From the IMG/VR virus record IMGVR_UViG_3300030419_006188, positions 1-23,533 of that record: a stretch of 23,533 nucleotides of DNA. The stretch is one strand, 5' to 3'. The notes under the pieces are model-generated. The model did not search any database. It was given only the letters and a program-made list of their open reading frames with translations, and was not told the DNA's origin. Below are positions 1 to 21,589 of the stretch, piece after piece; the stretch's first letter is position 1; each line of letters starts with the position of its first letter. The position numbers were made by a program, and so were the translations under genes. Source of the stretch: a virus.

Positions 1-2642
1 TAATTGGCACTAGTTACATTAGCAATCTTAACTTGAGATCCTACTGAAAGTTTATGAGGAATCTCAGTAGTATAATAAGCAGTTCCACCAGTAACCCAAT
101 CAGCCTGACGAATATAACTAGGATTCCTTAATTCAGTAGCATTACTCATAGTCACTGAAGATGAGCTATAAAGAAGAGCTACTTCAGTATCAGTTGTGCC
201 AGTTACATCACTAGATTCTTGTAAAACATAGTTAGGTCTAGGAGAACGAGCTGATGTAACTCCACTAGTTGAAGGAACTACATATCTTACCTTATAAAGC
301 TTATCCTCAATACCTCTAGTATCTGGGGTTCTGGTAATGTAAGTTCTAGATGTTGCATCACCCAGATGAGTAGTTCCCAAACTGACTACTCTAGGGTAGA
401 TATCATTATCTGTAGATACACCAACATACCATTGACTATTATCACTATCATATTGAACTGGGTGTCCTATATCACCTGCATTCTTATCACTTACTCTACT
501 TTCACAACTTAAAGTTCCTCCTAATGCGTTAATAGTAACCTTAATAGCATTGGTAGCATCAGTAGGAGTAGCAGCAACCTGAATCTGGTCTGTTTCTAAA
601 CTATTAGTAATAGCGTAATATAAGGTATTAGCTTTAATTCCATCAGGTAACCGAGCATTATCACTTCTAAAACGAATAGATTCTCCATTGAGGAAGGTAT
701 GATCCTGAGTAAAGGTAATGGTATTAGAAGTAATGCTATTACCTCCACCTACACCTGTACTTCTTCCAACAGTAAAGCTCTTCATAGAACTTATTTGACT
801 GGAAACTCCTACAAGTTTCTCAGTTTGAGCCATAATAATGCGAGCATCATAATTAACTGTTCCTATACCAACACTCAACTTATCATTTACCTTCGCACCA
901 ACTCTATATCCCTGTACTACTGAAGGAGGAGCAGCTGCTTCATTAGTTTCTCCATATAGATATAATCTACTAGTAGATCCTATACCAATAGTCTGTGAAA
1001 CATCAATAGAATTCCATTCCAACTTAAGGTCACTGGTTGAAATCTCTTTCGGTGGAACAATATTAGTAATATATCCTGTATCATCTCTTGAGAAAGCAGA
1101 ATCTCTAAATCCTACTCCAGCAAATCCAGCTTGACCAAAGTTAGAGTTGGAGTTAGTAATAGAGAAGTCTCCACCACTTTCAGTCACAAAATGTCTATCA
1201 AAACCAACAGCAAAGATAGAAACTAACTGCAATACCGCATTATTTGATGCTTTAATGTGGTAGTTGGCGTAAGCTGGTTTATACTTAGCGTCAGAATTAC
1301 TATGAATATTAGCAATACTAGTACTATCGTCAAAAGCACCACTAGTAGTATTAAATTTAACAAAAGCATTATCATCTTTCTGTAAACTGACTCCAGTAAA
1401 TTGAGCCAGGACCATAGATCTAAATCCACTTGCCTTAGATCCATCGGCATGCATACCACACATACCCCACACAGATCTCAAAGAACAATTGAAGATGTAT
1501 GGAGATGAACCAGCAACTGTGTCAATATCTAACTCTAATATACCATTAGAATATCCAGGTGTAACAGTAGATGGAGCAACCGTCGCATTATACTTAAACT
1601 TAGTCGTTCCTGTAGAAGTAGTCGTTAGAACTTCATTAACAACAAACTGACCATTATAATCCCCATCACTAATACCACTCATCTGGAAGGATGTGTCAAC
1701 ATTTAATCCAGGAACAGCTTCGGAAGTTTCTACAGTAATAACCTTAGTAGAAGCTGTACCATCACCAGAGAAGATATTACTAATACTATAAGTTCCACCA
1801 GTAGGACCAACAATTCTATATTCTTCAACTTTAGGTTGAATATCAACACTACTACTTGGATAATCAGGTTCTATCTTACGTCCAGAAGCAGTACCATACG
1901 CCAGACCTACTTTTTCATAATAAACATCTAAATCTGTTCTATCAGTAGAATATGTCTGGAAGGTATCATTAATACTAATATTATTAACACCATCAGCAAA
2001 CTCAAAACAAGTTAATTTGTGGTGAGAGAAGTTAGGAACATAGGTAGAAGTTGTATAATCCTTATATACTTGTCCATTGGGGTCACCATCAAACATAGTG
2101 ACTTGAAGGAAATAACTTCCACCAGTTACTCTAAACAGAGCTGATCTGTCAATATTATCATTAGAAGGATTAGGAACATACTTAGGACGTATCTTTACTT
2201 TACGCAAATCCAGTCCAACTAAAGATATACCCCTAGGAATAATTACACCACCATGAATACTATTAAACTTATAAAGAATATTATCTTGGGTATTAATATC
2301 AAAATTGGAAGTAGCATTTAAGGCAGGAAAATCAGAAGATGTAGTACCATCTCTCAATCGGAAATTACCTGTACCATCAGGAATCCATCCTGGTCTATTA
2401 TCTATGAGGTGTTCTCCAGGTTGGAGATAGATAGTCGTCTTTCCGAATCTATCATTATCCAATCCTTTCTGATATGAAAATCTTGCTGCTTCAATTAGTG
2501 CCCTTTGAATGGTAAGAAAGGGACGTCCCATTGAATTACCAGTATTCTCAATACTATCTGTAGCGTCCAGATCATTAGGACTCACATAAAGGATGTTACC
2601 ACGAACATTCTTCAGAAAATTATCTAATCGACTTAGTGGCAT
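1..2642 (-). CDS. Large virion structural protein, beta-helix-like N-terminus (3' end outside window)
   Basis: An uninterrupted frame of 880 codons starts at the ATG at 2642 and runs off the left edge, so the C-terminus is missing. The protein begins MPLSRLDNFLKNVRGNILYV and continues with a G-N-S-x-x-R-P-F-x-T-I-Q-R-A-L stretch (about residues 35-50) and IYLQPGEH (about 71-78). That layout resembles the start of right-handed beta-helix tail-spike proteins. A later block with GMCGMHADGSKASGFRSM (about residues 391-408) I recognise from memory as conserved in large cyanophage myovirus structural proteins. The body is rich in Ser, Thr, Gly and Val with no membrane segment, as expected for an extracellular virion part. 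It lies last in the fibre/baseplate block and has its own late promoter 29 bases upstream. Role as fibre, adhesin or baseplate appendage is inference; no enzyme motif was recognised. Confidence 0.85.
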   Translation of the reverse strand, partial: MPLSRLDNFLKNVRGNILYVSPNDLDATDSIENTGNSMGRPFLTIQRALIEAARFSYQKGLDNDRFGKTTIYLQPGEHLIDNRPGWIPDGTGNFRLRDGTTSSDFPALNATSNFDINTQDNILYKFNSIHGGVIIPRGISLVGLDLRKVKIRPKYVPNPSNDNIDRSALFRVTGGSYFLQVTMFDGDPNGQVYKDYTTSTYVPNFSHHKLTCFEFADGVNNISINDTFQTYSTDRTDLDVYYEKVGLAYGTASGRKIEPDYPSSSVDIQPKVEEYRIVGPTGGTYSISNIFSGDGTASTKVITVETSEAVPGLNVDTSFQMSGISDGDYNGQFVVNEVLTTTSTGTTKFKYNATVAPSTVTPGYSNGILELDIDTVAGSSPYIFNCSLRSVWGMCGMHADGSKASGFRSMVLAQFTGVSLQKDDNAFVKFNTTSGAFDDSTSIANIHSNSDAKYKPAYANYHIKASNNAVLQLVSIFAVGFDRHFVTESGGDFSITNSNSNFGQAGFAGVGFRDSAFSRDDTGYITNIVPPKEISTSDLKLEWNSIDVSQTIGIGSTSRLYLYGETNEAAAPPSVVQGYRVGAKVNDKLSVGIGTVNYDARIIMAQTEKLVGVSSQISSMKSFTVGRSTGVGGGNSITSNTITFTQDHTFLNGESIRFRSDNARLPDGIKANTLYYAITNSLETDQIQVAATPTDATNAIKVTINALGGTLSCESRVSDKNAGDIGHPVQYDSDNSQWYVGVSTDNDIYPRVVSLGTTHLGDATSRTYITRTPDTRGIEDKLYKVRYVVPSTSGVTSARSPRPNYVLQESSDVTGTTDTEVALLYSSSSVTMSNATELRNPSYIRQADWVTGGTAYYTTEIPHKLSVGSQVKIANVTSAN

Positions 2643-2671
2643 CTCTTTTGCGCAGTAATTCTATTATGACT

Positions 2672-2679
2672 TATTTATC
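2672..2679 (-). promoter_or_regulatory. T4-type late promoter (GATAAATA) for the large structural gene
   Basis: The minus strand reads GATAAATA, matching the NATAAATA late -10 element used by T4-like phages with gp55, gp33 and gp45. It lies 29 bases upstream of the ATG at 2642, the same spacing (26-29 bases) as the other late promoters here, and just downstream of a terminator. Confidence 0.7.
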
Positions 2680-2683
2680 GCAT

Positions 2684-2705
2684 AAAAAACCCCCCAAGAA
2701 GGGGG
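2684..2705 (-). terminator. Rho-independent terminator after the 63-residue gene
   Basis: The minus strand reads CCCCC, a TTCTT loop, GGGGG, one more G, then six T. The hairpin starts 8 bases past the stop codon of the 63-residue gene, ending that small-gene cluster. The plus strand lacks a clean U-tract after the hairpin, so direction is minus. Confidence 0.85.
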
Positions 2706-2712
2706 TTATTTA

Positions 2713-2904
2713 TTAATTCTTCCATCCATTCTCTTGACCTTCATATTCATGATTATCTACCATATTTTCAACCTTAACAGCCACATCAGTCATTGCCTGT
2801 CTTAAGTCAAATTGTTGTCCTGATTCTTGATTTCCCGTCGTAGGATCTATCAATGACCATCGCCATTGTTTCATATGTTTGGAATACCAGAGTTTAATAT
2901 CCAT
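2713..2904 (-). CDS. Small conserved hypothetical protein, 63 residues
   Basis: Unknown function. The 63-residue protein begins MDIKLWYSKHMKQWRWSL, has an ESGQQ motif (residues 27-31), and continues into a probable amphipathic helix (about residues 34-50) and an acidic tail. It is soluble, with no membrane segment or signal peptide and no cysteine. Small proteins with this W-x-W and ESGQQ pattern are, from memory, common in T4-like cyanophages, but I cannot name a family. It starts 11 bases after the stop of the 44-residue gene and is followed by a strong terminator, so it is probably the last gene of a short small-gene unit. The Shine-Dalgarno signal is weak (GGGG about 16 bases upstream). 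Confidence 0.75.
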   Translation of the reverse strand: MDIKLWYSKHMKQWRWSLIDPTTGNQESGQQFDLRQAMTDVAVKVENMVDNHEYEGQENGWKN

Positions 2905-2915
2905 ACATTATTTAT

Positions 2916-3050
2916 TTACCCCATCATCCATAAAAAATCTAGATAAGACTCTGTTTCGGTATAAACACCTTTAGTAGTGTCATTTGATAAAGGAGCACCT
3001 GGACCATGAGCTTCTGGAGGATTTTTAGATTTTTCTTTCTTTTCTGCCAT
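2916..3050 (-). CDS. Small hypothetical protein, 44 residues
   Basis: A 44-codon frame from the ATG at 3050 to a TAA at 2916. The protein begins MAEKKEKSKNPPEAHGPGAP and ends with LDFLWMMG: a basic start, a Pro/Gly-rich middle and a short hydrophobic end. No family is recognised. Support comes from its fit in the same-strand gap between two other small genes, its tight 11-base spacing to the next gene, and a composition unlike a random frame. Against it, no clear Shine-Dalgarno sequence precedes the ATG, and it starts just downstream of a terminator, so it needs readthrough or its own promoter. Role unknown. Confidence 0.55.
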   Translation of the reverse strand: MAEKKEKSKNPPEAHGPGAPLSNDTTKGVYTETESYLDFLWMMG

Positions 3051-3068
3051 TTTAAAAAGTAATAGAGT

Positions 3069-3097
3069 AAAAAAATTTGGGAGATTATTTTTCCCCC
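3069..3097 (-). terminator. Rho-independent terminator after the 74-residue gene
   Basis: On the minus strand GGGGGA (3097-3092) can pair with TCTCCC (3084-3079; one G-U pair) across a 7-base A/T loop. This is followed by AAA and seven T. The hairpin's left arm is part of the 34-base repeat shared with the gp32 3' end. It should end transcription of the 74-residue gene. Confidence 0.7.
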
Positions 3098-3126
3098 GAT
3101 TCTGTAACTAAAAGTTGAATTTCCCT
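3093..3126 (-). repeat. 34-base dispersed repeat, copy A (3' end of 74-residue gene)
   Basis: The sequence matches 20237-20270 at 31 of 34 positions; the last 17 bases on the plus strand are identical. In both copies the repeat begins at the stop codon of a minus-strand gene and leads into a C5/G5 run and then a T7 tract. See the matching copy and the finding. Confidence 0.85.
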
Positions 3127-3349
3127 ACAGAGGATTTACATAAACTAATACCTCATCAGGTACAACCGCCCTTACTAACTCAAGTATATTCATAAACTCT
3201 TCTAAGTTTTCACAATCCACCTCCTTTTCATCTCCATGACTGGATAGAAGACGCACATTTCTCTTCATAGGATCGACAATACACCTGGTAACGTATTCAT
3301 CCTCCTCATTCTCCGTCACATAATCCTCAAAATTGTACTTAGGTTCCAT
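3125..3349 (-). CDS. Small acidic hypothetical protein with its own promoter and terminator
   Basis: Unknown function. The 74-residue protein starts MEPKYNFEDYVTENEEDEYV and is strongly acidic, with many Glu/Asp residues. A central segment (about residues 24-36) looks like a short beta hairpin, and the C-terminal half (about 47-72) looks helical, ending VLVYVNPL. It has two cysteines (C23 and C46) but no recognisable zinc motif. The gene appears to be a separate transcription unit: an extended -10 host-type promoter lies 22 bases before the ATG, and a terminator with the gp32-like 3' element follows the stop. GGAGGGG lies about 13 bases upstream of the ATG as a ribosome site. The acidic character and likely early expression fit a small host-takeover or DNA-mimic protein, but this is speculation. 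Confidence 0.75.
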   Translation of the reverse strand: MEPKYNFEDYVTENEEDEYVTRCIVDPMKRNVRLLSSHGDEKEVDCENLEEFMNILELVRAVVPDEVLVYVNPL

Positions 3350-3370
3350 AGAAATCTAAATTACCCCTCC

Positions 3371-3376
3371 ATTATA
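3371..3376 (-). promoter_or_regulatory. Host sigma70-type extended -10 promoter for the 74-residue gene
   Basis: The minus strand reads TGGTATAAT, a perfect TATAAT -10 box with the TG of an extended -10. A -35 is poor at best (TTAGGA with an 18-base gap). It sits in the 37-base gap between the 54-residue gene and the 74-residue gene, about 22 bases before the start codon. Confidence 0.6.
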
Positions 3377-3386
3377 CCACATATCC

Positions 3387-3551
3387 TCAAAGCGTCCTAA
3401 CTATTTTAAGAAGTGTAGCATCAGCTCCCCCAGCACACAACTCTTTATACTTCTTTTCACATTGTTCTCTAGTCAAATTTAAAAACTCTGTATCCACAAA
3501 ACCAGTGGTGGTCTCTGTCATAATCTTGTATCTAAAATTTTCTTCAGTCAT
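3387..3551 (-). CDS. Small conserved hypothetical protein, 54 residues
   Basis: A 54-codon frame from the ATG at 3551 to a TGA at 3387. The protein begins MTEENFRYKIMTETTTGFVD and ends KIVRTL. The layout is a short beta hairpin (about residues 6-22) followed by a helix containing LTREQCEKKYKEL (about 26-38). Proteins with this MTE(E)NFRYKI start and VRTL end are familiar from cyanophage genomes, but I know no function. GAGG lies about 8 bases upstream of the ATG, a good ribosome site. The gene follows the glycine-rich fibre gene after a 34-base gap that may contain a weak late promoter. It is likely soluble and cytoplasmic. Confidence 0.7.
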   Translation of the reverse strand: MTEENFRYKIMTETTTGFVDTEFLNLTREQCEKKYKELCAGGADATLLKIVRTL

Positions 3552-3574
3552 TTTACATCCTCATGTCAGTAAAG

Positions 3575-3582
3575 TATTTAGA
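3575..3582 (-). promoter_or_regulatory. Possible weak late promoter (TCTAAATA)
   Basis: The minus strand reads TCTAAATA, one base from the TATAAATA late element. It lies 23 bases upstream of the 54-residue gene, similar to the 26-29 base spacing of the clearer late promoters. The mismatch lowers confidence. Confidence 0.3.
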
Positions 3583-3585
3583 GTG

Positions 3586-4650
3586 TTACATCTTTTCTAT
3601 TCTGCCACCACCAGCACCACCATTTGCTGATCCAAAAGTTCTACCATAGGCAGGACTAGAATAAGGATTAGCTACAGTGCTTCCTGAAGCATCCCATTCA
3701 TCATCAAAACTTCCACTATTATTTCCACCTTCTCCAGCTTCACAAGCACCAGTAGCTCCTCCACTTACATGAGCTCCGGCACCTCCACCGCCACCATTAG
3801 TACCTCCACTACCACCAGCACCAAAAGTATTACATCCTCCTCCTCCAGTAGCTTGGCCACCACCACCTACTGGACTAACACTTCCTCCGGCCATTCCACC
3901 GCCGCCTCCACCAGCGATCATTCCATCAAAGTGAGAAGATCCTCCTCCTCCACCACCCATCCAAGTGCCTAAAGGATTAGTAAAGTATCCACCACCCCCT
4001 CCAGCTCCATATCCTGGTCCGGGTTGTGCGCCTCCTCCTGAACAATTAGTGGGACCAGATGGCTGAGTAGGATCACAACGCTCTCCCTCACCTCCACCTT
4101 GACCAATAGTAATTGTAACAGGAGCAGGAGAAGGATACGTGACTGTCTTTCTTACAGATCCACCAGCACCTGCTGCTCCTCCTGCACCAGATCCTTTACC
4201 TCCAGCGGCTCCCCATAGAGTAATCCTATAAGTTCCGGTCTGGAAAGTAACTGTGGTAGTAGCATTAACATCCGCATTGGTAGGAGTGGTAATTGTCAGG
4301 TTGGAACCCGTTACCCATGGCGACGTATAATCAATAGAAGTAGACCAACTAGACCACAATCCAGTATTAGATTTATATCTACATCTTACATATCTTGTTC
4401 CACCACCCAAATTACCAGTAGTAATAGTAGTTAAATTAGAAGTATTATTAAGAGAAGACCAAATTACACTGGAAAATCCAGAGTCGGAAGCTACTTCCCA
4501 ATCAGTCGCAGCATGTGTAATACCCCCAAAAGCTACAAAAGCACTTGCAACAATGGTAGGAGTGGGTGTGTCATCAATTTCACCTGAGGTGGGAGATGTT
4601 ATAGAAGGAGTGGCTACAAAAGATCCTCCCATCAGTCCTTTATTCAACAT
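3586..4650 (-). CDS. Glycine-rich tail-fibre adhesin-like protein with FN3-like domain
   Basis: This 354-residue protein has two parts. Residues about 14-113 look like a fibronectin-III-like beta domain (TPTIVASAF, then DWEVASDSGF, then TRYVRCRYKS and LWSSWS). Residues about 140-354 are a glycine-rich region that begins with ITLWGAAGGKGSGAGG and holds repeated Gly5-Gly8 runs and a few cysteines (in ERCDP, TNCSGG, GGCN and GACEAG). The arrangement recalls the polyglycine sandwich adhesins of T-even fibre tips (gp38 type) and Gly-rich phage tail proteins; this is a similarity of composition, not a confirmed homology. Its start overlaps the stop of the upstream fibre gene by one base (TAATG), so the two are probably made together. 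A receptor-binding tip or fibre accessory is the likely role. The gly-rich part is low complexity, so family searches may mislead. Confidence 0.75.
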   Translation of the reverse strand: MLNKGLMGGSFVATPSITSPTSGEIDDTPTPTIVASAFVAFGGITHAATDWEVASDSGFSSVIWSSLNNTSNLTTITTGNLGGGTRYVRCRYKSNTGLWSSWSTSIDYTSPWVTGSNLTITTPTNADVNATTTVTFQTGTYRITLWGAAGGKGSGAGGAAGAGGSVRKTVTYPSPAPVTITIGQGGGEGERCDPTQPSGPTNCSGGGAQPGPGYGAGGGGGYFTNPLGTWMGGGGGGSSHFDGMIAGGGGGGMAGGSVSPVGGGGQATGGGGCNTFGAGGSGGTNGGGGGAGAHVSGGATGACEAGEGGNNSGSFDDEWDASGSTVANPYSSPAYGRTFGSANGGAGGGRIEKM

Positions 4651-5663
4651 TATGCGTATCCTACCCCCAAAGTACTGACATATACATTAGTTCCATTATC
4701 GGGAGTAAAGAAAGAGAAAATATCAGTAGTAGCTGTAGCAGACCAAGTAGGAGCAGCACCACCCTGCCACTTTCCATTTGTCATGGTAATACTTCTAGTT
4801 CCTGTTCCAGTCCAGGTAACAATTACAATTCCTGAACACATCTTACTTGCTACTGAATTAGTAACTGTAAAAGTAACAGCATTTGTTCCAGCAATAGTAC
4901 AAGTAAACACAGAACCTGCACTTACATCTAAATTATTAGATCCCGTTATAGTACCCAAAGCAGTTACACTTTCAGTATACCCAGCAAAACCAGACACTCC
5001 ACTCGCAGTTAGATTACTAACTCCTAATTCATCATCACTTGGATTATATGTTAATTGACTATCAACCCTACAAGGATTATTACCGGATGTAGCTCCTAAA
5101 AATACAACATACTGGGTGGCGTCTGTAGAATCTAAATTAGTTCCTACATTAGAAGCATTAGCCACACTAGTTGTACTAGGAGCAATCCATTCTAAATCTG
5201 TACCATCAGAAGAAAGTATTTGTCCCGAAGTTCCAAAATCCCCATCCCCATCATATAATTTTCCTTCCATGTATACATCACCATTAAAAGTAGATATACC
5301 AGTAACCTTAAATGAATCAGTTGTAGTAATACCACTCACTTTAAGATGACTGCCCATTGTGGTTACACCAGAGACACTCAACCCCGTAGTCACTCCAGAT
5401 ATAGTTAAACCACCATCAATAATTCTTACTCCACTTCTAGCTGTAATAAATCCGATAGAATCTATATTAGTTACATCTTCATAAGTTATAGTACCACCAA
5501 CAGAGATACTAGTAGCAAAAGAAACATGATTTAGAAATGTACAAATACCTGATACATACAACTCACTACTAATGCCAGCTCCTCCACCCTCTTCTTTAAT
5601 AAGAGCAATAGTAGATGACCCTGCGGCAACTTGATCATCAAAGTTGTAGTAATGTAAGGACAT
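4650..5663 (-). CDS. Tail fibre-like structural protein, beta-repeat type
   Basis: A 337-residue protein, rich in Ser, Thr, Gly and Val, with no enzyme motif. It starts MSLHYYNFDDQVAAGSSTIA. Residues about 60-80 hold VTNIDSIGFITARSGVRI, a phrase recurring in cyanophage fibre and structural proteins. The next 60 residues repeat short units of the type SGVTT / SGITT / TGIST, typical of a trimeric beta-structured shaft. The C-terminal third (about 225-337) is a separate beta domain with TFTVTNSV and TGTRSITMTNG segments, perhaps a tip domain. TAGGAG lies about 7 bases before the ATG. It ends in a one-base overlap with the glycine-rich gene. Inferred role: shaft or distal part of a virion fibre used in host attachment. 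Confidence 0.75.
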   Translation of the reverse strand: MSLHYYNFDDQVAAGSSTIALIKEEGGGAGISSELYVSGICTFLNHVSFATSISVGGTITYEDVTNIDSIGFITARSGVRIIDGGLTISGVTTGLSVSGVTTMGSHLKVSGITTTDSFKVTGISTFNGDVYMEGKLYDGDGDFGTSGQILSSDGTDLEWIAPSTTSVANASNVGTNLDSTDATQYVVFLGATSGNNPCRVDSQLTYNPSDDELGVSNLTASGVSGFAGYTESVTALGTITGSNNLDVSAGSVFTCTIAGTNAVTFTVTNSVASKMCSGIVIVTWTGTGTRSITMTNGKWQGGAAPTWSATATTDIFSFFTPDNGTNVYVSTLGVGYA

Positions 5664-5673
5664 CTATATTCTC

Positions 5674-6492
5674 CTACTTATTAACACTATATGCACTATT
5701 ATCACCAGGATAATCATCTGAAGTTTCACCTTCATACTCCACAATCAATTTTTCTCCATCAATTCTTTCACCATAGATGTGATAAAAACAATTAATAGGC
5801 ATAGAAGCATTAGCTTGGAGATGTACCTTCTCGATGTCCCATCTCTTCACAATAATGTCTTGATGAGCACCAATAGGTTGAAGTTGAACCGTAATAGATT
5901 GAGGATCCACAAAACCTTTCCAATAAGAAGGAAGGACAATCTCATTGGTATTTTTTACTTTTCCTCTAATATAAACACCGGATTCCGGTCCTTCCAGACA
6001 AACATGTCTTAATCTCCACCCTTCTTTAGTAGGATGAGGAATATCAAATGGTTTTCTAGTACTTAATTTCTTACCATTTTTAGTAGCAATACAATCATCT
6101 CCATTAACATCATCAGAGGCAGTTAATTCACCACCAAGTGTAATATTATCACTTACTATAACATTATCCCCTACTGTTACATCATCTGCGACATAAAGAT
6201 CTCCAGTCTGTCCTTCACTATTAGCATCTATCCTAACATTCCCTTTAACTTTTAAAGAAAGAGTAGGATGTTCTTCTCTATCTGTATTGACTTCTGGACC
6301 TATCATCACAGTAGCATCAGGAACTAGTTCTCCTCCTCGTCTAACTCCTGAAAATTCAGGACACTTTCCTACAAGCAAAGGTCCTTCAATATAACCTGAC
6401 CCTCTTATTTCATTCCTTCCCCGCCCCAAAACTTCAGGAGCTCCCCAGCCTACAAATAATCTTTTTCCTACAAATAAATCTGATAATTTCAT
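5674..6492 (-). CDS. Fibre/structural protein with conserved PHPTKEGWRLRHVCLEGPE domain
   Basis: A 272-residue protein. The N-terminal part (residues 1-135) is beta-rich, with hexapeptide-like stretches such as LYVADDVTVGDNVIVSDNIT (about 99-118) that suggest a beta-helical shaft. The C-terminal half starts with KPFDIPHPTKEGWRLRHVCL followed by EGPESGVYIRGK (about residues 148-180) and ends with FYHIYGERIDGEKLIVEYEG. This domain occurs widely in tail-fibre and structural proteins of marine T4-like phages, where it caps a fibre. A near-perfect AAGGAGG Shine-Dalgarno lies 8 bases before the ATG. The gene sits 12 bases after the spike-like gene and 10 bases before the next fibre gene. The role in host attachment is inferred from family and context. 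Confidence 0.75.
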   Translation of the reverse strand: MKLSDLFVGKRLFVGWGAPEVLGRGRNEIRGSGYIEGPLLVGKCPEFSGVRRGGELVPDATVMIGPEVNTDREEHPTLSLKVKGNVRIDANSEGQTGDLYVADDVTVGDNVIVSDNITLGGELTASDDVNGDDCIATKNGKKLSTRKPFDIPHPTKEGWRLRHVCLEGPESGVYIRGKVKNTNEIVLPSYWKGFVDPQSITVQLQPIGAHQDIIVKRWDIEKVHLQANASMPINCFYHIYGERIDGEKLIVEYEGETSDDYPGDNSAYSVNK

Positions 6493-6504
6493 GTAATTTC
6501 CTCC

Positions 6505-7212
6505 TTAATCACAGTCATGGGCATGAAGACCCAAGAACCGTAAAACTCCACTCTTTTGTCTCATCTGTCTTTCAAAAGGATTATCTCCTTTAGATCCATT
6601 AACAGATGTAGCTCCATCTGCCATATCAATAGTCCCACCATATAAATTTAAGGTAGACATCCCCTCCAATTGTAAAAGCTTTTCTGCAAACATTTTACCA
6701 GTAACTTTACATTTTATATCAATAGATTGTTCTGCGTCAAGTACTATATTGTTATTAGCACTCACATTAAAATTACCACTTTCACCAGTAGGTCCAGTAG
6801 CTTTAAAAATAAAATCCTCTGCTTCAAACTTAATCTTACCACTAGGAGCCATAATAACTATATCTCCATTCACTGCCTCCATATAAATGGCAGTAGTAGC
6901 ATCTGATTTAGGAGCTGGAGGTCTAACACTAGTTATACCTGCATTAAAATCAGCAAGTTGTTGGTTGTAAGTAGTCTCTACAGCACCTATATTATCACCA
7001 GCTTTTACTTGAAAAGAACCTTTAGATCTACAAATAGTTCCTTCTTTCCGAGAAGGACTTCCAGTAGCACATAAAGCTATGTAATGATTGAAACTCCTAC
7101 AGTTTCTAATCATTACTGCATCAAGTTCATTATCCCAAGTAATATGACCAAAGGCGTATTCACCTTCGGCTGTTCCGCCCCGAACGGTATGGTAGGTAGT
7201 TTCTTGTGACAT
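6505..7212 (-). CDS. Baseplate spike-like beta-rich protein downstream of gp5
   Basis: A 235-residue protein whose ATG directly follows the TAA of gp5 (TAAATG). Residues about 108-205 are a run of short beta strands (YMEAVNGDIVIMAPSGKI, then NFNVSANNNIVLDAEQSIDI, then KLLQLEGMSTLNLYGGTI). The pattern resembles the C-terminal beta-prism needle of T4 gp5 and VgrG-type spikes, where the phrase NGDIxI.A.GKI recurs. The end contains LHAHDCD, and the last residues could bind a metal, but that is a guess. Context and fold pattern suggest that this gene supplies the needle or a spike accessory as a protein separate from gp5. It might also be another hub-associated structural protein. Confidence 0.65.
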   Translation of the reverse strand: MSQETTYHTVRGGTAEGEYAFGHITWDNELDAVMIRNCRSFNHYIALCATGSPSRKEGTICRSKGSFQVKAGDNIGAVETTYNQQLADFNAGITSVRPPAPKSDATTAIYMEAVNGDIVIMAPSGKIKFEAEDFIFKATGPTGESGNFNVSANNNIVLDAEQSIDIKCKVTGKMFAEKLLQLEGMSTLNLYGGTIDMADGATSVNGSKGDNPFERQMRQKSGVLRFLGLHAHDCD

Positions 7213-9957
7213 TTACCAGACCATCGATGTATCGTTACAATTTTTACAAGGTGCATAAAGAGATTCTGGAACTCTTCCTACACAATCAACTACATTAATA
7301 ATTTTGTCTTGCACTCCTGGCTCCTTAAGTTTATCATCACTTATTCTATCTATACAAAATCTAGGAAGAATATCTGCATTGAATCCAGTGTTAGACTTTA
7401 CATACACTTGAGGCATTTCTTGAAATCCTTCTCCACCTGATGTAATTTTGACAGAAGTAATCATTCCCATATCATTAACCTTAATAGAAGCCTGAGCTCC
7501 CCTATCTGGTTTAATAATAACCTCATCTGTTTCTTTATATCTTACGCCAGGAGATTGGACAGTCATCTCACACAAATAAAGAATGACAGGATAAGAACCA
7601 TCACTATCGCTAGGATATGTACCCGTAGGAACAGTAAATCCAACATCACTATCAACAGTACGACCAGTAGTAGGATCGGTAACCACACCAGTAGTAGGAT
7701 CCGTAACCAAGCCAGTAGTAGGATCAACAGCTGTAGGGAGAGTAGGAGTGGTAAAACTTCCAGTTTCCTGTACTACCTGCTCTGTTCCACCTAAAATTTC
7801 TTCACCACTAGGCTCAAGAATAACTCTGGTTCCTGGAGGAAGAAGAACTCTATCTCCAGGAGTAACATTCATAACATGTCCTGGAGCACGAGGAATTTCT
7901 CTTATTCCATCATCATCATCACTCTCACCTGGAAGAGAATCACGAATAACACTAGTATCATCAGGTCTTGCCCATACTCTACCAGCACCTCCAGTACTTC
8001 CATCAGCTCTAGAAAGATACCCTCTACCCGGTCTGGGTACATTAACTGCTACCACCCCAATTGTGCTTGGTCCAGAATCTCCAGGACCTCGAGGATGTTG
8101 AACTACATCACCAGGTTGATAAGTATTCCCCTCTCTCCAAGCGGGAGGATTAGTTGTTAGAGTATTAGGATCAAGTTGTTCCCATACTGCCGTATTAGGA
8201 GGAGTATTGTTGGTGGAAGGATCACCAGAAATATTTCTATAAGCATTAACCTGACCCAACACAGGAGTTAGCACTGCAGAATTAGTTCCAGTTCCACAAG
8301 TATCTCCTACACTAATATTCAATCCACTATCAACATTAATTCCATAACTCATCAAATCTACTCCTAATATAGCGCCAGCAGCATTAATAAGGGCATTGCC
8401 AACAGGAGGAGTACTACCTTGACCACCTAAAAATGTAACTAGAGGAGGACCACAATAGAAAGGATCAGTACTAGAATTTGTACCATCACTACAAGTTTGG
8501 TTAGCAACATCTCCAAAACCAACACTTAAATTATTCAAACCATCAATAGAAGCTTGAACTTGACCCCCTGCTGCTTGGACTACACTAGCTGCTTGTGATG
8601 CTACTGCATTCATTTGACCAAAAATAGAACCAATGTCTGCGGCACCTAGTGAACCTGCTCCACCAACAATACTCCAATCTTTATTAGGACTACACTCAGC
8701 AGTTTCTTCACAAGTAAGAAAAGATAAAATATCTGCAACCAACCCAGAAATACTGGTAGAAATACTAGTAAGTCCTCCCATAAGACCACCAGCCAATCCA
8801 GCTATGCCAGTAAGAGCTCCTAATGCTCCTTGAATGACACCATTGATGGTGCCCATTGCTTGTCCTAAAAGATTTCCTATAAAATTATCAACAAAACATC
8901 TAGTAATATTAACAGCTCTATCAAACATTCCACTAAGGAAATCAAACATCATACCAAATAAACCTTCTATCATCCTCTTGAAAAGACAAGCTATTATATC
9001 ATTCATTCCATCCATTCTCGTCTTAAAGTCCTGCATCTCATTAGGCATTAAGTTATTATAAAGAGATTTTGTTCCTGCATTAATTGTATTGGTTATGGCC
9101 TTTTGAATCTTACCATATATCATCTTCATATTACCAGAAATAAACTTAGCAGCTTGTTGAATAAGAGCGTCTATCTTTGCTTGTGTGTTACCAACCCCCT
9201 TAGTAATAGAATATTTGTATTCAGTAGCAGCCCTTCTAACCCTTTCAATTTCATTAACTACATTTTGCATTTGTTTTTGTATCTGCCCAACAGGCATTGG
9301 TTCACATTGGGATGTCTCCGGATTAGGTTTAGTATCTTGGTCCTCATTGTAAGCTGCTTCATCTACAATCTTTTCAACACTACTAGTAGTACCTATACTT
9401 TCACCCCAGGCATCATTAATATTAGCTCCCTGATCAGCAGCAGCTTCTTGATCAGCAACAATTTGACCTGATGGATTGGAATTAGCAGCGACAGTGGCAA
9501 TCTTACCCCCATCATTCTCATCATATCCACTAAAAGGAATAAACCCAGACTCTTCTGGAATATTTCTCCTTACTGCTTGATAATCATTATATCCCATACA
9601 TCCCATAATTACTGGGACCTGACCCTGAGACCCATCTAAAAAGAATCCAAATACAAATGTTCCTTGAACAATATTGGCATTAGTATAATGATTTCTTCCT
9701 CCACCACCACCGGTAACAGGATACATCACGGATGCCCATGGCAAATCTTCATCAGGAAGATCTTCAGATGAAGCGGTATGATACCCCATGATACGAACTT
9801 TATATCTCTCACCAAAACCTTGTATAGTTTGATTAGTTCTTTGGGGATTATTAGGAATATTATTCTGCCATTGTTCGGCATTAACAACCTGTCCAATCCA
9901 CCATTGGAAACCCTCTTGCCCTACAATATTTTTATTTAAAAGACCTTGTTCTATCAT
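7213..9957 (-). CDS. 5: gp5-like baseplate hub protein (OB fold; no lysozyme domain recognised)
   Basis: A 914-residue protein. Residues about 15-125 match the N-terminal OB fold of T4 gp5: FQWWIGQVV, RYKVRIMGYH, DLPWASVMYPVTGGGG, then GTFVFGFFLDGSQGQVPVIM. This domain docks on gp27 in the baseplate hub. The T4 protein then has a lysozyme domain and a beta-helix; neither is recognisable here. Instead there is an acidic linker (about 140-220), a helical region (about 225-320), a hydrophobic Gly/Ala/Leu-rich helical region (about 330-420), a low-complexity stretch with three DPTTG repeats (about 735-770), and a beta-rich C-terminus with CEMTVQSPGVRYKETDEVII. Seven cysteines or more occur after residue 220. 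Its start overlaps the gp27-like stop (ATGA). Family assignment is good for the N-terminus; the remainder is cyanophage-specific. Confidence 0.85.
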   Translation of the reverse strand: MIEQGLLNKNIVGQEGFQWWIGQVVNAEQWQNNIPNNPQRTNQTIQGFGERYKVRIMGYHTASSEDLPDEDLPWASVMYPVTGGGGGRNHYTNANIVQGTFVFGFFLDGSQGQVPVIMGCMGYNDYQAVRRNIPEESGFIPFSGYDENDGGKIATVAANSNPSGQIVADQEAAADQGANINDAWGESIGTTSSVEKIVDEAAYNEDQDTKPNPETSQCEPMPVGQIQKQMQNVVNEIERVRRAATEYKYSITKGVGNTQAKIDALIQQAAKFISGNMKMIYGKIQKAITNTINAGTKSLYNNLMPNEMQDFKTRMDGMNDIIACLFKRMIEGLFGMMFDFLSGMFDRAVNITRCFVDNFIGNLLGQAMGTINGVIQGALGALTGIAGLAGGLMGGLTSISTSISGLVADILSFLTCEETAECSPNKDWSIVGGAGSLGAADIGSIFGQMNAVASQAASVVQAAGGQVQASIDGLNNLSVGFGDVANQTCSDGTNSSTDPFYCGPPLVTFLGGQGSTPPVGNALINAAGAILGVDLMSYGINVDSGLNISVGDTCGTGTNSAVLTPVLGQVNAYRNISGDPSTNNTPPNTAVWEQLDPNTLTTNPPAWREGNTYQPGDVVQHPRGPGDSGPSTIGVVAVNVPRPGRGYLSRADGSTGGAGRVWARPDDTSVIRDSLPGESDDDDGIREIPRAPGHVMNVTPGDRVLLPPGTRVILEPSGEEILGGTEQVVQETGSFTTPTLPTAVDPTTGLVTDPTTGVVTDPTTGRTVDSDVGFTVPTGTYPSDSDGSYPVILYLCEMTVQSPGVRYKETDEVIIKPDRGAQASIKVNDMGMITSVKITSGGEGFQEMPQVYVKSNTGFNADILPRFCIDRISDDKLKEPGVQDKIINVVDCVGRVPESLYAPCKNCNDTSMVW

Positions 9958-11351
9958 GGAGATGTAGATCCTCCGAATGAATCTCTTACTAAATCAAGAC
10001 TGGTAAAAGTCTCTCTAGGAGTAATCCTATGGCAAACACTTGCTACCATATATAGCCCCCCAGTTTGTTCGTTTGTGTCAGCATTGGCAGTGCCCTCTAC
10101 AGTAGGAAAGTCACATACAATTACATCACCAGCTTTAATACTAAAGTCAGCTGGAATAACAATGGTTACACTAATAGTAAATACCTGCTGATATCTCATA
10201 ATGGATTGAACCATTACATTCTTGGCATCATAATTAGGTTTTTCAGGATCATTCTTCCATTCTTCTAATTGTTCGTCACTACTAGTCCCACTAGGCATCA
10301 CTCCAAAATCCATAATATGACTCATTCCTCTAGAAGGAGATTGTCTAAACTCTTCTGCTACCAACTCACTATAATCCTCAGCAGCAGTTACCACTCCACT
10401 CTCCTGTTGATCTGTTATAGTATAAGGTCTAGTCTCATAATTAAAAGCATAATAATCAAAGAAAATAGATGTATTATTATAAGTTCCTAAGACTAACTTC
10501 TCATTTAAATCAATATCTTGATTGATATTATAACTTACAACGTTAGCGTCATATCCCTCTACACTATCTCCAGTATTATTATAAATGTATTTCTTAAGAT
10601 TATCTCTATTCTCCTGTGCCTGTTGCCATATAATATCTAAGGATTTAAAATGATATCCATCTCTTGTTTGATAAAATAGATATCCAGCAGCTCCTCCTAC
10701 TCCATTTCCACCATCATCTGTAGAAATTTGAGGAACAGCTTTAGAACCTAACCAAGTACAAATATAAAAAGGTTTTCTTGTATTACCAATAAAATTATAA
10801 GGATTCAAAGTAATGTCTATATCTTTTCCATCAACACCATCACCATCAGCCCAAGTTCCTTCCAATACTTCCTCAACAATAGTCTTCACATTCTCCGCTA
10901 TTGATCCATCATATCTCTTTGTCACCCTAGTCAAATCATTAGAAAAATATTCCTTAGAAGATAAATCTAAAGTATACATCTCCTGTTGTGTACCACTCAC
11001 AACATTCTTCACCCTATTAACATACAACCCATCACTAGCTGAACCAGAAAAACTTATTTGATTTGGTTGTTCTTGAGCATCTTCTATTACAAAATCAACC
11101 CTTTCTCCACCACGAATAGGAAGCCAATCTAAAGTTGATGGTTGAGTTGAAGGTCTATTAGGATTATTACTATCAACAAATCCAGTCTCAGTAATAACTG
11201 CACTAGCAGTAATTGCATTTGACATTATACTTTCATAGTATCTAATTTCTCCCACACCTGCACACAAATCTATGGAACGACTACTAACGTTCGAATTAAT
11301 CTTAAACTTTTCAATATTACCACTATTAGCAGTAGATTTTTGACTTGGCAT
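9954..11351 (-). CDS. Baseplate hub subunit, gp27-like by position
   Basis: A 465-residue protein lying directly upstream of gp5, with a four-base ATGA overlap. Its start overlaps the upstream tape-measure-like gene by one base (TAATG). The N-terminal part (FKINSNVSSRSIDLCAGVGE, then YYESIMSNAITASAVITETG, then LPIRGGERVDFVIED) has the alternating beta pattern of hub proteins that form a tube-like ring. The middle holds YYAFNYETRPYT, and the C-terminal part contains FTISVTIVIPADFSIKAGDVIVCDFP, a further beta domain. In T4 the gp27 trimer binds gp5 and forms the top of the hub. Length is a little above T4 gp27. I assign the role from place in the operon and beta-rich layout rather than clear motifs; a different hub protein is possible. 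Confidence 0.65.
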   Translation of the reverse strand: MPSQKSTANSGNIEKFKINSNVSSRSIDLCAGVGEIRYYESIMSNAITASAVITETGFVDSNNPNRPSTQPSTLDWLPIRGGERVDFVIEDAQEQPNQISFSGSASDGLYVNRVKNVVSGTQQEMYTLDLSSKEYFSNDLTRVTKRYDGSIAENVKTIVEEVLEGTWADGDGVDGKDIDITLNPYNFIGNTRKPFYICTWLGSKAVPQISTDDGGNGVGGAAGYLFYQTRDGYHFKSLDIIWQQAQENRDNLKKYIYNNTGDSVEGYDANVVSYNINQDIDLNEKLVLGTYNNTSIFFDYYAFNYETRPYTITDQQESGVVTAAEDYSELVAEEFRQSPSRGMSHIMDFGVMPSGTSSDEQLEEWKNDPEKPNYDAKNVMVQSIMRYQQVFTISVTIVIPADFSIKAGDVIVCDFPTVEGTANADTNEQTGGLYMVASVCHRITPRETFTSLDLVRDSFGGSTSP

Positions 11352-15486: not shown

Positions 15487-15646
15487 TCTGGGCTTTCTGC
15501 TTTTGTTCTTCTTCCTCTAGGTGTTGTTGTAACAAAGCCACGTATATGTCCCGTTCCCAGGGCATTAAATTTTCAATCTCAGTTAATGAGTATTTATGGT
15601 ACTGCATGAGGGCAAAATTCAGTTTAAAATATCCCTCTAGATCCAT
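15476..15646 (-). CDS. Small protein between gp26 and tape-measure-like gene; tail chaperone-like position
   Basis: A 56-residue protein beginning MDLEGYFKLNFALMQYHKYS with the motif MPWERDIYVALL (about residues 28-39) and an acidic, Gln-rich end. An in-frame ATG nine bases earlier (15655) would add three residues; I prefer the inner start because AGG lies about 10 bases upstream of it. The P-W-E-R-D-x-Y motif is like that in small tail-assembly proteins encoded just before tape-measure genes in other tailed phages (for example the gpE/E' family). The T4 counterpart might be the hub assembly protein gp51 or gp28, but length does not support this firmly. Its last 11 bases overlap the next gene, suggesting coupled translation. 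Confidence 0.7.
   Translation of the reverse strand: MDLEGYFKLNFALMQYHKYSLTEIENLMPWERDIYVALLQQHLEEEEQKQKAQNAS
15591..15598 (-). promoter_or_regulatory. Possible internal late promoter (CATAAATA)
   Basis: The minus strand reads CATAAATA inside the 56-residue gene, 104 bases upstream of the tape-measure-like gene. It matches the NATAAATA late element, but the spacing to the next start is much longer than for the other late promoters, so it may be chance coding sequence. Confidence 0.25.
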
Positions 15647-15657
15647 ATGGATCATGC

Positions 15658-19526: not shown

Positions 19527-20197
19527 TGGCAAAGCCCTACTTCAGATACGTACCAGACTTTGATTACGTCAGTAGGCTTACTGATGCTAAGAGTATATCG
19601 GACTATGTACGTACTAAAAATCTTTTTAAAAGAGCCAAACTAAGACCAGATATCTTTGAAAATCTCAATCACTTTACAAAATACAAAATTATTGGAGATG
19701 ATAGACCAGACAATGTAGCTTATGAAGTATATGGAGATCAAAATTTAGATTGGTTAATAATGTTATCTAATAATATTATTAATCTAGAGAATGAATGGCC
19801 AATGGAACAAACAGCTTTCCATAATTATCTACTTAAAAAATATAGAACAAACGCCAAAATATATTCAGTCCGTCATTATGAAACAGCAGAATTAAAAGAT
19901 AGTACAGGAAAAATTGTAGTTCCCAAAGGACTAGAAGTTCCTTCAGATTTTTCTATTACCTACTATGATTCTGGAAGAGGAGTAGAAGATGAAGTAGTAA
20001 ACAGTGCTGTAGCTGTTACTAACTACACCTACGAAGATAGAATACAAGAAAATAAAAGAAACATCTTCCTTCTTAAGGATAGATATGTTGGTCTTGTTAT
20101 AGAAGATCTTAAAGAAATCATGCCATATAAAAAGGGCTCTACTCAATTTGTGAGTAAAACCCTGGCTAGAGGAGAAAATATTAGATTATATAATTAA
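19526..20197 (+). CDS. 53: gp53 baseplate wedge subunit
   Basis: A 223-residue protein matching the gp53 wedge family. In T4, gp53 joins the six wedges around the hub. The start (AKPYFRYVPDFDYVSRLTDA) and the segment AYEVYGDQNLDWLIMLSNNI (residues about 68-87), with INLENEWPM after it, match the T4 pattern of a gene product with an AIYGNPQLYWVLL-type segment. The C-terminal part (about 175-215) is a helix with ENKRNIFLLKDRYVGLVIED and LKEIMPYKKG. Length is slightly above T4 gp53. It shares the TAATG overlap with gp48. The stop is 72 bases from the convergent gp32 gene. Confidence 0.88.
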   Translation: MAKPYFRYVPDFDYVSRLTDAKSISDYVRTKNLFKRAKLRPDIFENLNHFTKYKIIGDDRPDNVAYEVYGDQNLDWLIMLSNNIINLENEWPMEQTAFHNYLLKKYRTNAKIYSVRHYETAELKDSTGKIVVPKGLEVPSDFSITYYDSGRGVEDEVVNSAVAVTNYTYEDRIQENKRNIFLLKDRYVGLVIEDLKEIMPYKKGSTQFVSKTLARGENIRLYN

Positions 20198-20225
20198 AAA
20201 AACTAATAGGGTCAAAAAAATACCC
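20196..20225 (-). terminator. Possible terminator in the convergent gp53/gp32 gap
   Basis: The gap is 72 bases between two converging genes. A GGGT/ACCC stem with a 9-base A-rich loop lies at 20209-20225, followed on the minus strand by TATTAG and seven T. The stem is short. On the plus strand an ATTTT follows less convincingly. It probably ends the gp32 transcript and perhaps also that of gp53. Confidence 0.4.
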
Positions 20226-20236
20226 AGGATAATTTT

Positions 20237-20270
20237 CCCCCGATTTTGGAATTAAAAGTTGAATTTCCCT
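20237..20270 (-). repeat. 34-base dispersed repeat, copy B (3' end of gp32)
   Basis: This matches 3093-3126 at 31 of 34 bases, with the stop-codon-proximal 17 bases identical. The copy begins at the TGA of gp32 and includes GGGAAATTCAACTTTTA followed by CGGGGG. Downstream of both copies is a GGGGGAAAA stretch and a T7 tract. No hairpin is conserved between the two copies. Confidence 0.85.
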
Positions 20271-21193
20271 CAGGACTCAGCAAGTTTAGCAAAGTAACTC
20301 ATTGGATCTTCTTCCTCTGAATCATCTTCTACTTTCTTACTGTCCTTATAACTCTGTTCGAGTTTCTGAAGTACTTCCTCTTCTGATACTCTCTTCTGTT
20401 CTTGCTGAACAGTAGTATCATAATCCAACTCCTCTGTGGTTACCCTTTGAGGAGCTTTACGACCTAACACATAATCCAAACGCTTCTTCAGATCATCGTA
20501 GGACTTAAATTGATCAGCAGCTACAAAAGCTTGAAGAGAATGCTCCTTCTTCCAGATTGATTCTAGAGCGTCATCATCATCCAACAAAGGACCTGGAGTA
20601 TCAAACTCAGACTTATCATAATTCCAGAAACCATCCTTCTTCTGGAGCTTTAACTTAAAGTTAGCACCTGCCCAGAAGTCAAAGGGATTGATTGGAGTTT
20701 CATCCTCAAACTCTGGTTGCATTGCACCCATAATCTTGTCAAAGATCTTCTTACCAAACTTGTAAAGAAAAACATTCCCCTCGTTCTGAGGGTTAGCTGG
20801 ATCTTTTACAACATAGATGTTTGCATAGAAGGATAACTTACGCTTTTGCTTTCGTACAGTATCTTTATCTTTATCATTCCCACTGTTCCACAACTCACGA
20901 TTCAATTCTCCAAGAGGATCTTTTTGGTTAATGGTAGTGAGAGAGTTCTCAATATACCATCCACCAGGTCCTTGGAATGCGTGTGAAAACAGCTTAACCC
21001 ATGGCAAATCTTCTCCGTCAGGAGCAGGGAGGAATCGGATAACGGCATAACCATTACCACTCTTATCCATTTCTGGTTTCCAGAGCCTATCATCAGCCCC
21101 TCCACCAGTGTTATTCATCTTCTCGACTTCCTTGACTAGTTTGCTAGTTAAAGAGCCCAAAGAGCTTTGCTTTTTAAGGTCGGAAAAACCCAT
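20270..21193 (-). CDS. 32: gp32 single-stranded DNA-binding protein
   Basis: A 307-residue protein. N-terminal KKQSS (7-11) fits the Lys/Arg3-Ser/Thr2 type LAST motif needed for cooperative binding in T4 gp32. The core (about residues 35-225) shows GYAVIRFLPAPDGEDLPWVK, RKLSFYANIYVVKDPANPQN, EGNVFLYKFGKKIFDKIMGA and WAGANFKLKLQKKDGFWNYD, all typical of the family. The C-terminal tail is acidic (VEDDSEEEDPMSYFAKLAES), as needed for contacts with other replication proteins. No cysteine is present, so the T4 zinc site is absent. It lies downstream of DUF1825 and gp59, with GAGG 8 bases before the start. The TGA overlaps a 34-base repeat shared with the 74-residue gene. Confidence 0.95.
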   Translation of the reverse strand: MGFSDLKKQSSLGSLTSKLVKEVEKMNNTGGGADDRLWKPEMDKSGNGYAVIRFLPAPDGEDLPWVKLFSHAFQGPGGWYIENSLTTINQKDPLGELNRELWNSGNDKDKDTVRKQKRKLSFYANIYVVKDPANPQNEGNVFLYKFGKKIFDKIMGAMQPEFEDETPINPFDFWAGANFKLKLQKKDGFWNYDKSEFDTPGPLLDDDDALESIWKKEHSLQAFVAADQFKSYDDLKKRLDYVLGRKAPQRVTTEELDYDTTVQQEQKRVSEEEVLQKLEQSYKDSKKVEDDSEEEDPMSYFAKLAES

Positions 21194-21244
21194 TTGTATA
21201 CCTCGTATTAAATGTATTTGGCTTGTGTGTACTCTGTTATCTTA

Positions 21245-21589
21245 TCACTGGGGCGATCCTTTGTCAATATGATTTCTCATATGTTCAATCATTTTAAACA
21301 TATTCTTAAAGGTATCACCTAAATCAACACCTGGAGGAAACCCCATGTCCTGTGCTTGCTTCTGAAGCATATTTTTCATCTCTTTGGCTTTAGGATCATC
21401 AGATAATTTCAATCTATGATAGAAAATGTTCTGTTTATGTAACAATTTCTCTAGATTTTTAATCTGTTCTAATTGTTCACCCTGAGGTAGAGTTTGAAAA
21501 TTAAAAAAGTTAACAAAAACTGTTTCTTGCAACTTTTCAATTTCTCTCAGTTCTTCCTGTACCAGTTCTGATTGGAAAAATTCACTCAT
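21245..21589 (-). CDS. DUF1825-like protein
   Basis: A 114-residue, largely helical, acidic protein starting MSEFFQSELVQEELREIEKL and followed by FVNFFNFQTLPQGEQLEQIK. The F-x-S-E-x-V-Q-E-E start, the LEKLLHKQNIFYHRLKLSDD stretch (about 46-65) and the DMGFPPGVDLGDTF segment fit DUF1825, a family of cyanobacteria and their phages, as I remember it. Molecular function is not known to me. It overlaps gp59 by four bases (ATGA) and precedes gp32 by 51 bases, so it belongs to the replication operon. Membership in a host-shared family points to a cyanobacterial host. It may have been acquired from a host. Confidence 0.75.
   Translation of the reverse strand: MSEFFQSELVQEELREIEKLQETVFVNFFNFQTLPQGEQLEQIKNLEKLLHKQNIFYHRLKLSDDPKAKEMKNMLQKQAQDMGFPPGVDLGDTFKNMFKMIEHMRNHIDKGSPQ

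Follow-up and report, generated by a model that had tools for sequence, protein, structure and literature searches.

A small acidic gene of T4-like cyanophages with a conserved host-type promoter and a 3' element shared with gp32

T4-like cyanophages are abundant viruses of the ocean whose takeover of the host is mostly unexplained. Promoter/stem-loop cassettes of T4-like phages, the PeSLs, were reportedly described by Arbiol 2010 and Comeau 2014; in a PeSL, a stem-loop and an early promoter adjoin one another in a single intergenic repeat. PeSLs of T4-like phages are named in PMC4503421, cyanophage promoters are divided into early (sigma-70) and late (TATAAATA) ones by Sullivan et al. 2010 (PMC3037559), the auxiliary metabolic genes of P-HM2, including talC, are classed as middle genes (PMC5082946), and so are genes of nucleic-acid metabolism (PMC7238727).

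The window, by which we mean the whole 23.5-kb IMG/VR record analysed here, belongs to a T4-like cyanophage. Parts of it have their best matches in Prochlorococcus phage P-TIM68 and Synechococcus phage Bellamy. Its genes include those for gp32, the gp59 helicase loader, a gp33-like late-transcription coactivator (PF16805) and a 2OG oxygenase. A sequence-only reading of this DNA had pictured a small acidic gene, linked to gp32, as a self-contained unit expressed early by the host polymerase from inside the late genes. Judged from sequence comparison, we assign a probability of about 0.75 to the reading that this gene, a member of the DUF7294 family, would form a small host-RNA-polymerase unit within the late block, transcribed early or in the middle of infection, with some late read-through.

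The DUF7294 gene and its late neighbours

The gene and its downstream neighbour occupy the following positions:

3125..3349, minus strand: 74-aa ORF, DUF7294 (PF23966) / PHROG 662 / T4-GC 29, from profile matches and orthologues
3..2642, minus strand: giant fibre gene (T4-GC 30 in relatives), the late neighbour on the downstream side, truncated where the window ends
2672..2679, minus strand: T4-type late motif GATAAATA of the fibre gene, in contrast to the DUF7294 promoter

The acidic gene of 74 residues that had been noticed is indeed present: the ORF at 3125-3349 (minus strand) encodes 74 aa with a pI of 4.2 and 19 D/E vs 7 K/R, and the pI lies below 5 in all 68 aligned relatives. The window protein belongs to PF23966 (E 1.1e-17; 64.3 bits against a curated cut-off of 27), which also matches 19/19 members of alignment A1, and to PHROG 662 (E 2.2e-16). 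It likewise belongs to T4-GC 29, homologues being so annotated in S-SM2, P-SSM2 and P-HM2, with an agreeing gene order. DUF7294, PHROG 662 and T4-GC 29 are already catalogued families with no assigned function, and no mention of DUF7294, PSSM2_032, PSSM2_033 or PHM2_028 was found in the literature searched. With the Pfam model, 15 of 16 cyanophage records yield a single copy each and 14 control genomes yield no copy; the 41 hits among 50,697 phage records obtained by tblastn with the protein are therefore an undercount (the fibre N-terminus, for comparison, was found in 453 phage records). Two narrower queries of IMG/VR returned 544 and 411 relatives, sets that may overlap, and 80 loci were kept per query.

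In the AlphaFold2 model of the protein the core, beta-beta-beta-alpha-beta, is predicted confidently and an N-terminal extension with low confidence. Among solved structures there was no convincing match: the nearest structural neighbours of the model are uncharacterised cyanophage proteins, and a search by sequence found no relatives of solved structure (best E 0.4). The fold matches to the periplasmic domain of FtsH (Foldseek, best E 0.034) and to ribosomal protein eL38 (VIA-align, 60 residues at rmsd 2.6, Z 6.0, a range common for unrelated folds) are too weak to build on. Blocking of a host enzyme, the role brought up in the sequence-only reading, would suit a small acidic early protein, but none of the present results speaks for it specifically. 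Our tentative first choice, at rather less than even odds, is a protein of early regulation or takeover that has its partner in the host or in the phage; next comes a helper of fibre or baseplate assembly.

On one side of the DUF7294 unit are structural genes packed closely together (3586-15655, with no gap above 12 nt), on the other the giant fibre gene starting at 2642. In relatives the position of DUF7294 is usually the end of the baseplate block, ahead of this fibre gene. A homologue of a 272-aa late-block protein is found upstream on the same strand in 167/180 loci, and the fibre N-terminus downstream on the same strand in 77/180, each locus including at most ~1.5 kb of flank. Since the gene ends the late block in 167 of the 180 loci, late transcription must reach it. 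In the window, a gap of 37 nt separates it from its upstream neighbour, a 54-aa gene; no terminator-like site was found in this gap, so late read-through is likely.

That the surrounding genes use late promoters was right for the fibre gene, which has GATAAATA at 2679, and in the related loci ATAAATA lies within 80 nt of 63/77 downstream fibre starts. The same motif was found within 80 nt of none of 180 DUF7294 starts, nor ahead of the window gene. Between a 63-aa gene and the fibre late promoter, the window also contains a strong hairpin at 2688-2707. It has T-runs on either strand and might be a further terminator, active in both directions.

The promoter in the window and in its orthologues

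The elements ahead of the window gene are:

3371..3379, minus strand: extended -10 element TGGTATAAT (TATAAT at 3376-3371), homologous to the promoters of orthologues
3400-3395, minus strand: weak -35-like TTAGGA, the best -35 candidate for this promoter
3350..3370, minus strand: region from the -10 to the ATG with the conserved leader motif GGTAAT; transcription start predicted near 3364

The perfect extended -10 reported just upstream of the 74-aa ORF was confirmed as TGGTATAAT at 3379-3371 (minus strand), so that the -10 consensus of host sigma-70-type promoters is present, in extended form. A consensus -35 at 16-18 nt, found in most orthologues, is absent from the DUF7294 promoter of the window, whose best full match (TTAGGA-18-TATAAT) reaches 9/12, a score also common in shuffles. 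The window has five copies of TGNTATAAT, where 200 shuffles average 2.2, and a sigma-70 scan of window positions 1-12000 gave no excess (41 vs 40.6). The -10 of the window could thus, alone, be due to chance; it is significant because the comparison of orthologues reveals a conserved promoter. When a matrix was trained on 78 other sites, the window being excluded, the extended -10 plus leader ranked the DUF7294 site of the window first of 47,020 positions, and the full matrix including the -35 ranked it fourth. On these comparisons, the putative window promoter is an extended -10 version with a decayed -35.

Upstream regions were scored against TTGACA-N(15-19)-TATAAT over 12 positions, spacers outside 16-18 costing one point, and the 180 loci were dereplicated to 106 by upstream identity. 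Matches of at least 10/12 were found in 87/106 dereplicated regions and all 12 positions were matched in 45/106; in the 87 regions, the -10 begins 28-32 nt ahead of the ATG (5th-95th percentile). Dinucleotide shuffles reach at least 10/12 in 2.6% of cases, and control same-strand ORFs of the same loci do so in 13/204. Some of the low scorers among the 106 reflect a wrongly chosen start, as in L019, which scores 12/12 from an inner ATG. This locus is S-SKS1 (HQ633071.1; L019/L250), in which a perfect promoter has its -35 ahead of the annotated DUF7294 start codon and its -10 behind it; translation more likely begins at the inner ATG (MQDEF...).

Among named genomes, 12 of 15 have a promoter of at least 10/12 located 27-32 nt before the ATG, and it is retained in ACG-2014g, WH25-B and ACG-2014c despite a barely recognisable protein. 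P-HM2 reaches 10/12; scores fall below this in P-TIM68 (8), P-SSM2 (8) and S-CAM9 (9), and the promoter is absent from the close relatives P-TIM68, AG-345-O18 and AG-345-E08 as well as from P-SSM2. Perfect promoters with a spacer of 17 number 1-16 per genome in 13 named genomes, 75 in total on one strand per genome, and the DUF7294 gene owns one of them in 6 of the 13; others in S-SM2 stand ahead of hli and small hypothetical genes, among others. Many DUF7294 orthologues also have the leader consensus GGTAATCAA in common.

The 3' element and the link to gp32

The features behind the gene and around gp32 are:

3049..3126, minus strand: 3' element, consisting of a conserved AAATTCAACTTTTA stretch, a hairpin, a U-tract and a second conserved CTCTATTACTTTTT tail (from the repeat and model R1)
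3079..3097, minus strand: predicted terminator hairpin within the 3' element, 6 pairs followed by the U-rich tail AAAUUUUUUU
20193..20270, minus strand: second copy of the 3' element (78-nt repeat), directly behind gp32
20270..21193, minus strand: gp32 single-stranded DNA-binding protein (PF08804, E 6.9e-49)
21239..21267, minus strand: gp32 promoter, TTGACA-17-TAAGAT, the best full-matrix site of the window

A terminator had been placed just downstream of the gene, and one is predicted there: the hairpin at 3097-3079 (minus strand) has 6 pairs and a U-rich tail, the G+C stem followed by a U-tract that is typical of an intrinsic terminator. The link to gp32 through a shared 3' element also stood, in that 3049-3126 and 20193-20270 form a 78-nt repeat, 79% identical over a distance of 17 kb, and a 37-nt core pattern of the element matches twice in the window and never in 100 shuffles. 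The two genes also have a promoter type in common. The gp32 promoter has its -10 ~50 nt ahead of gp32 and a full-matrix score of 12.8, the next site in the window scoring -2.1; similar gp32 promoters (10-12 of 12) are found in P-TIM68, AG-345-E15, Bellamy and S-SCSM1, and a weaker one (9/12) in WH25-B. The gp32 promoter of the window begins at the end of a 114-aa gene (21245-21589) ahead of gp32, which matches DUF1825 (PF08855, E 1.6e-9).

The core of the element was found behind DUF7294 genes and gp32 in several contigs. A sequence-only model of it, R1, built from 35 rows, has a sense-strand match behind DUF7294 in 73/80 and 60/80 loci of the two sets, 133/160 in total, 15 of the 160 having supplied model rows; excluded from these counts were 23 antisense matches, all weak, and a single sense match located elsewhere than at the gene (L088 at 484). 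P-HM2 has no copy of the element behind its DUF7294 gene. R1 also matches 20/20 cyanophage records at E <=0.01, weakly in S-CAM9 and S-SRM01, 13 of the 20 having supplied model rows. Clear copies come directly after DUF7294, after gp32 or the gene that stands last behind it, and after gp33-like genes (S-SM2, MITS9220, S-SCSM1 and Bellamy), talC (S-T4 and Sf-CH5), a hypothetical of 117-126 aa and, in P-SSM2, a dioxygenase. Against the early or middle reading of DUF7294 stand some strong copies that follow genes of unassigned timing, and weaker copies that follow a glycine-rich, structural-looking gene (F15).

Several single loci deserve mention. In four phages (L237, L240, L241 and L244) the element ends the gp33-like coactivator unit; no copy was found behind the gp33 gene of the window. 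Two copies in AG-345-F15 (MH319752.1; L226, L238) have the same tail, TTTTTTTGCTCTGTAGGGTCGAT, and different middles, which suggests, as far as these sequences go, concerted change within the genome. A contig in a marine bin filed as gammaproteobacterial (MED656; L216, 57-137) carries the whole cyanophage element, and is probably phage DNA in a bacterial bin.

The stretch preceding the hairpin, AAAWTCRACTTTTAATTCC, is strongly conserved, and the hairpin itself varies and shifts register. Over 35 copies of the element, 61% of cells are paired under a single hairpin, slightly above slid controls, and the 81-nt 3' region folds slightly better than shuffles (z -0.9). One rigid RNA structure was rejected, none being found by RNAalifold in alignments of 74 and 87 rows, the former including a few non-elements (e.g. 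L039, L046, L148 and L186); further stems guessed by eye were dropped, as many rows break them. No Rfam family was assigned, the two matches being far below gathering scores and elsewhere in the window. A host origin was likewise rejected: the 20-nt core occurs in 10 stretches of bacterial contigs, L216 among them, and none is titled cyanobacterial.

Expression, rival explanations and known systems

In the mechanism that we propose, the RNA polymerase of the host, carrying its main sigma factor, would start at the TTGACA/TATAAT-type promoter ~29 nt ahead of the ATG, giving a leader of ~15-20 nt without a clear Shine-Dalgarno site, and DUF7294 mRNA would be made from this promoter at a stage when the late machinery is not yet present. 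The mRNA would end at an intrinsic terminator whose cyanophage relatives also close the units of gp32, gp33 and talC, among others, stopping the transcript ahead of the following genes. With a host-type promoter and a terminator of its own, DUF7294 would be independent of the ATAAATA late machinery that drives its neighbours; once late transcription begins, the baseplate operon would probably read through into it, so production of the protein may last for the whole infection.

Two claims of the sequence-only reading survive here in part. Early expression by the host polymerase is favoured by the conserved host-type promoter and by the terminator family shared with gp32 and other genes, which together make early or middle transcription probable, but the -35 of the window is lost and the timing is one that we infer. 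The unit has its own putative promoter and terminator, but to call it self-contained goes too far, as no terminator-like site was found in the upstream gap; in several relatives it has no promoter or runs straight into the next gene, the unit of some phages continuing into a following small gene with no end behind DUF7294.

The same observations bear on a quite unlikely alternative, in which the window gene would belong essentially to the late class, as the final cistron of the baseplate operon, with the terminator closing that operon and an ancestral promoter remnant of little effect in front. The degenerate -35 and the terminator-free 37-nt gap agree with it, as do AG-345-E08 and AG-345-O18, where the gene stands directly behind the 272-aa gene with no promoter. 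Yet the consensus extended -10 and leader are retained at the homologous place, the terminator is of the type common to gp32, gp33 and talC units, and the lack of ATAAATA ahead of the gene throughout the 180 loci weakens an exclusively late reading. DUF7294 could also assist in assembling the fibre or baseplate and be produced in advance, in the manner of gp57A, the small fibre chaperone of T4. Its location between the baseplate block and the fibre gene, the latter following in 77 of the 180 loci, is in keeping with this, and is the same in Bellamy, P-TIM68, S-SM2, P-SSM2, MITS9220, S-SCSM1 and S-SRM01; however, tRNAs and unrelated small genes often intervene before the fibre, and a helper has no obvious need for a host-type promoter that ranks among the genome's strongest. 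We take this rival seriously, while judging it rather unlikely.

Regarding the 3' element, a main role in mRNA processing or protein binding (e.g. an RNase E site near the stop codon) rather than in termination only would explain the invariant sequence ahead of the hairpin. The element is nearly gap-free across different genes and genomes and its hairpin varies, and T4 gene 32 mRNA has an RNase E site near its stop codon (PMC3014915); copying between loci could also keep the element alike, however, and some phages have part of it inside the coding end, and we consider such a main role improbable. Very improbable, finally, is the arrival of DUF7294 in the late block on a mobile cassette of PeSL type: the small gene is flanked by an early promoter and a stem-loop that recurs in the genome, but it is single-copy in each of 15 genomes, keeps a stable place behind the late block, and has promoter and stem-loop on opposite sides instead of side by side.

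The early or middle host-polymerase unit with late read-through is accordingly the reading that we retain. A broader proposal, which we regard as somewhat doubtful, is that DUF7294 would be a nearly universal early takeover protein of these phages, expressed by the host polymerase from within the late genes, and that the 3' motif would mark early/middle units (DUF7294, gp32, gp33 and talC) with mRNA ends set by a common terminator or processing factor. Our results draw attention to a tiny acidic protein, present in nearly all the cyanophages examined, whose promoter persists where the protein sequence itself diverges, and they make its role directly testable; the cyanophage 3'-end element ties unrelated genes together and can aid the prediction of transcription units.

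Both the gene family and T4-like promoter/stem-loop units were previously known, and the literature searched yielded no description of a conserved DUF7294 promoter or of the shared 3' element, an earlier mention being possible. The window gene belongs to T4-GC 29/DUF7294/PHROG 662 by profile score, single copy and gene order; the entries of these families, unlike the locus described here, come without the conserved promoter or the 3' element. The division of cyanophage promoters into early and late is found again, with a host-type promoter for DUF7294 and the late motif for the fibre gene, but here a promoter of the early type is embedded among late genes, in a position common to most genomes, and has the conserved GGTAATCAA leader. 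The 3' element resembles intrinsic terminators in its hairpin and U-tract, and the RNase E site near the stop codon of T4 gene 32 (PMC3014915) in its location; it differs from the former in having a long conserved pre-hairpin sequence, common to unrelated genes, and no relevant Rfam match. With PeSLs, the locus has in common an early promoter and a stem-loop around small genes of T4-like phages, whereas its promoter and stem-loop do not adjoin but flank the gene, and its place and copy number are stable.
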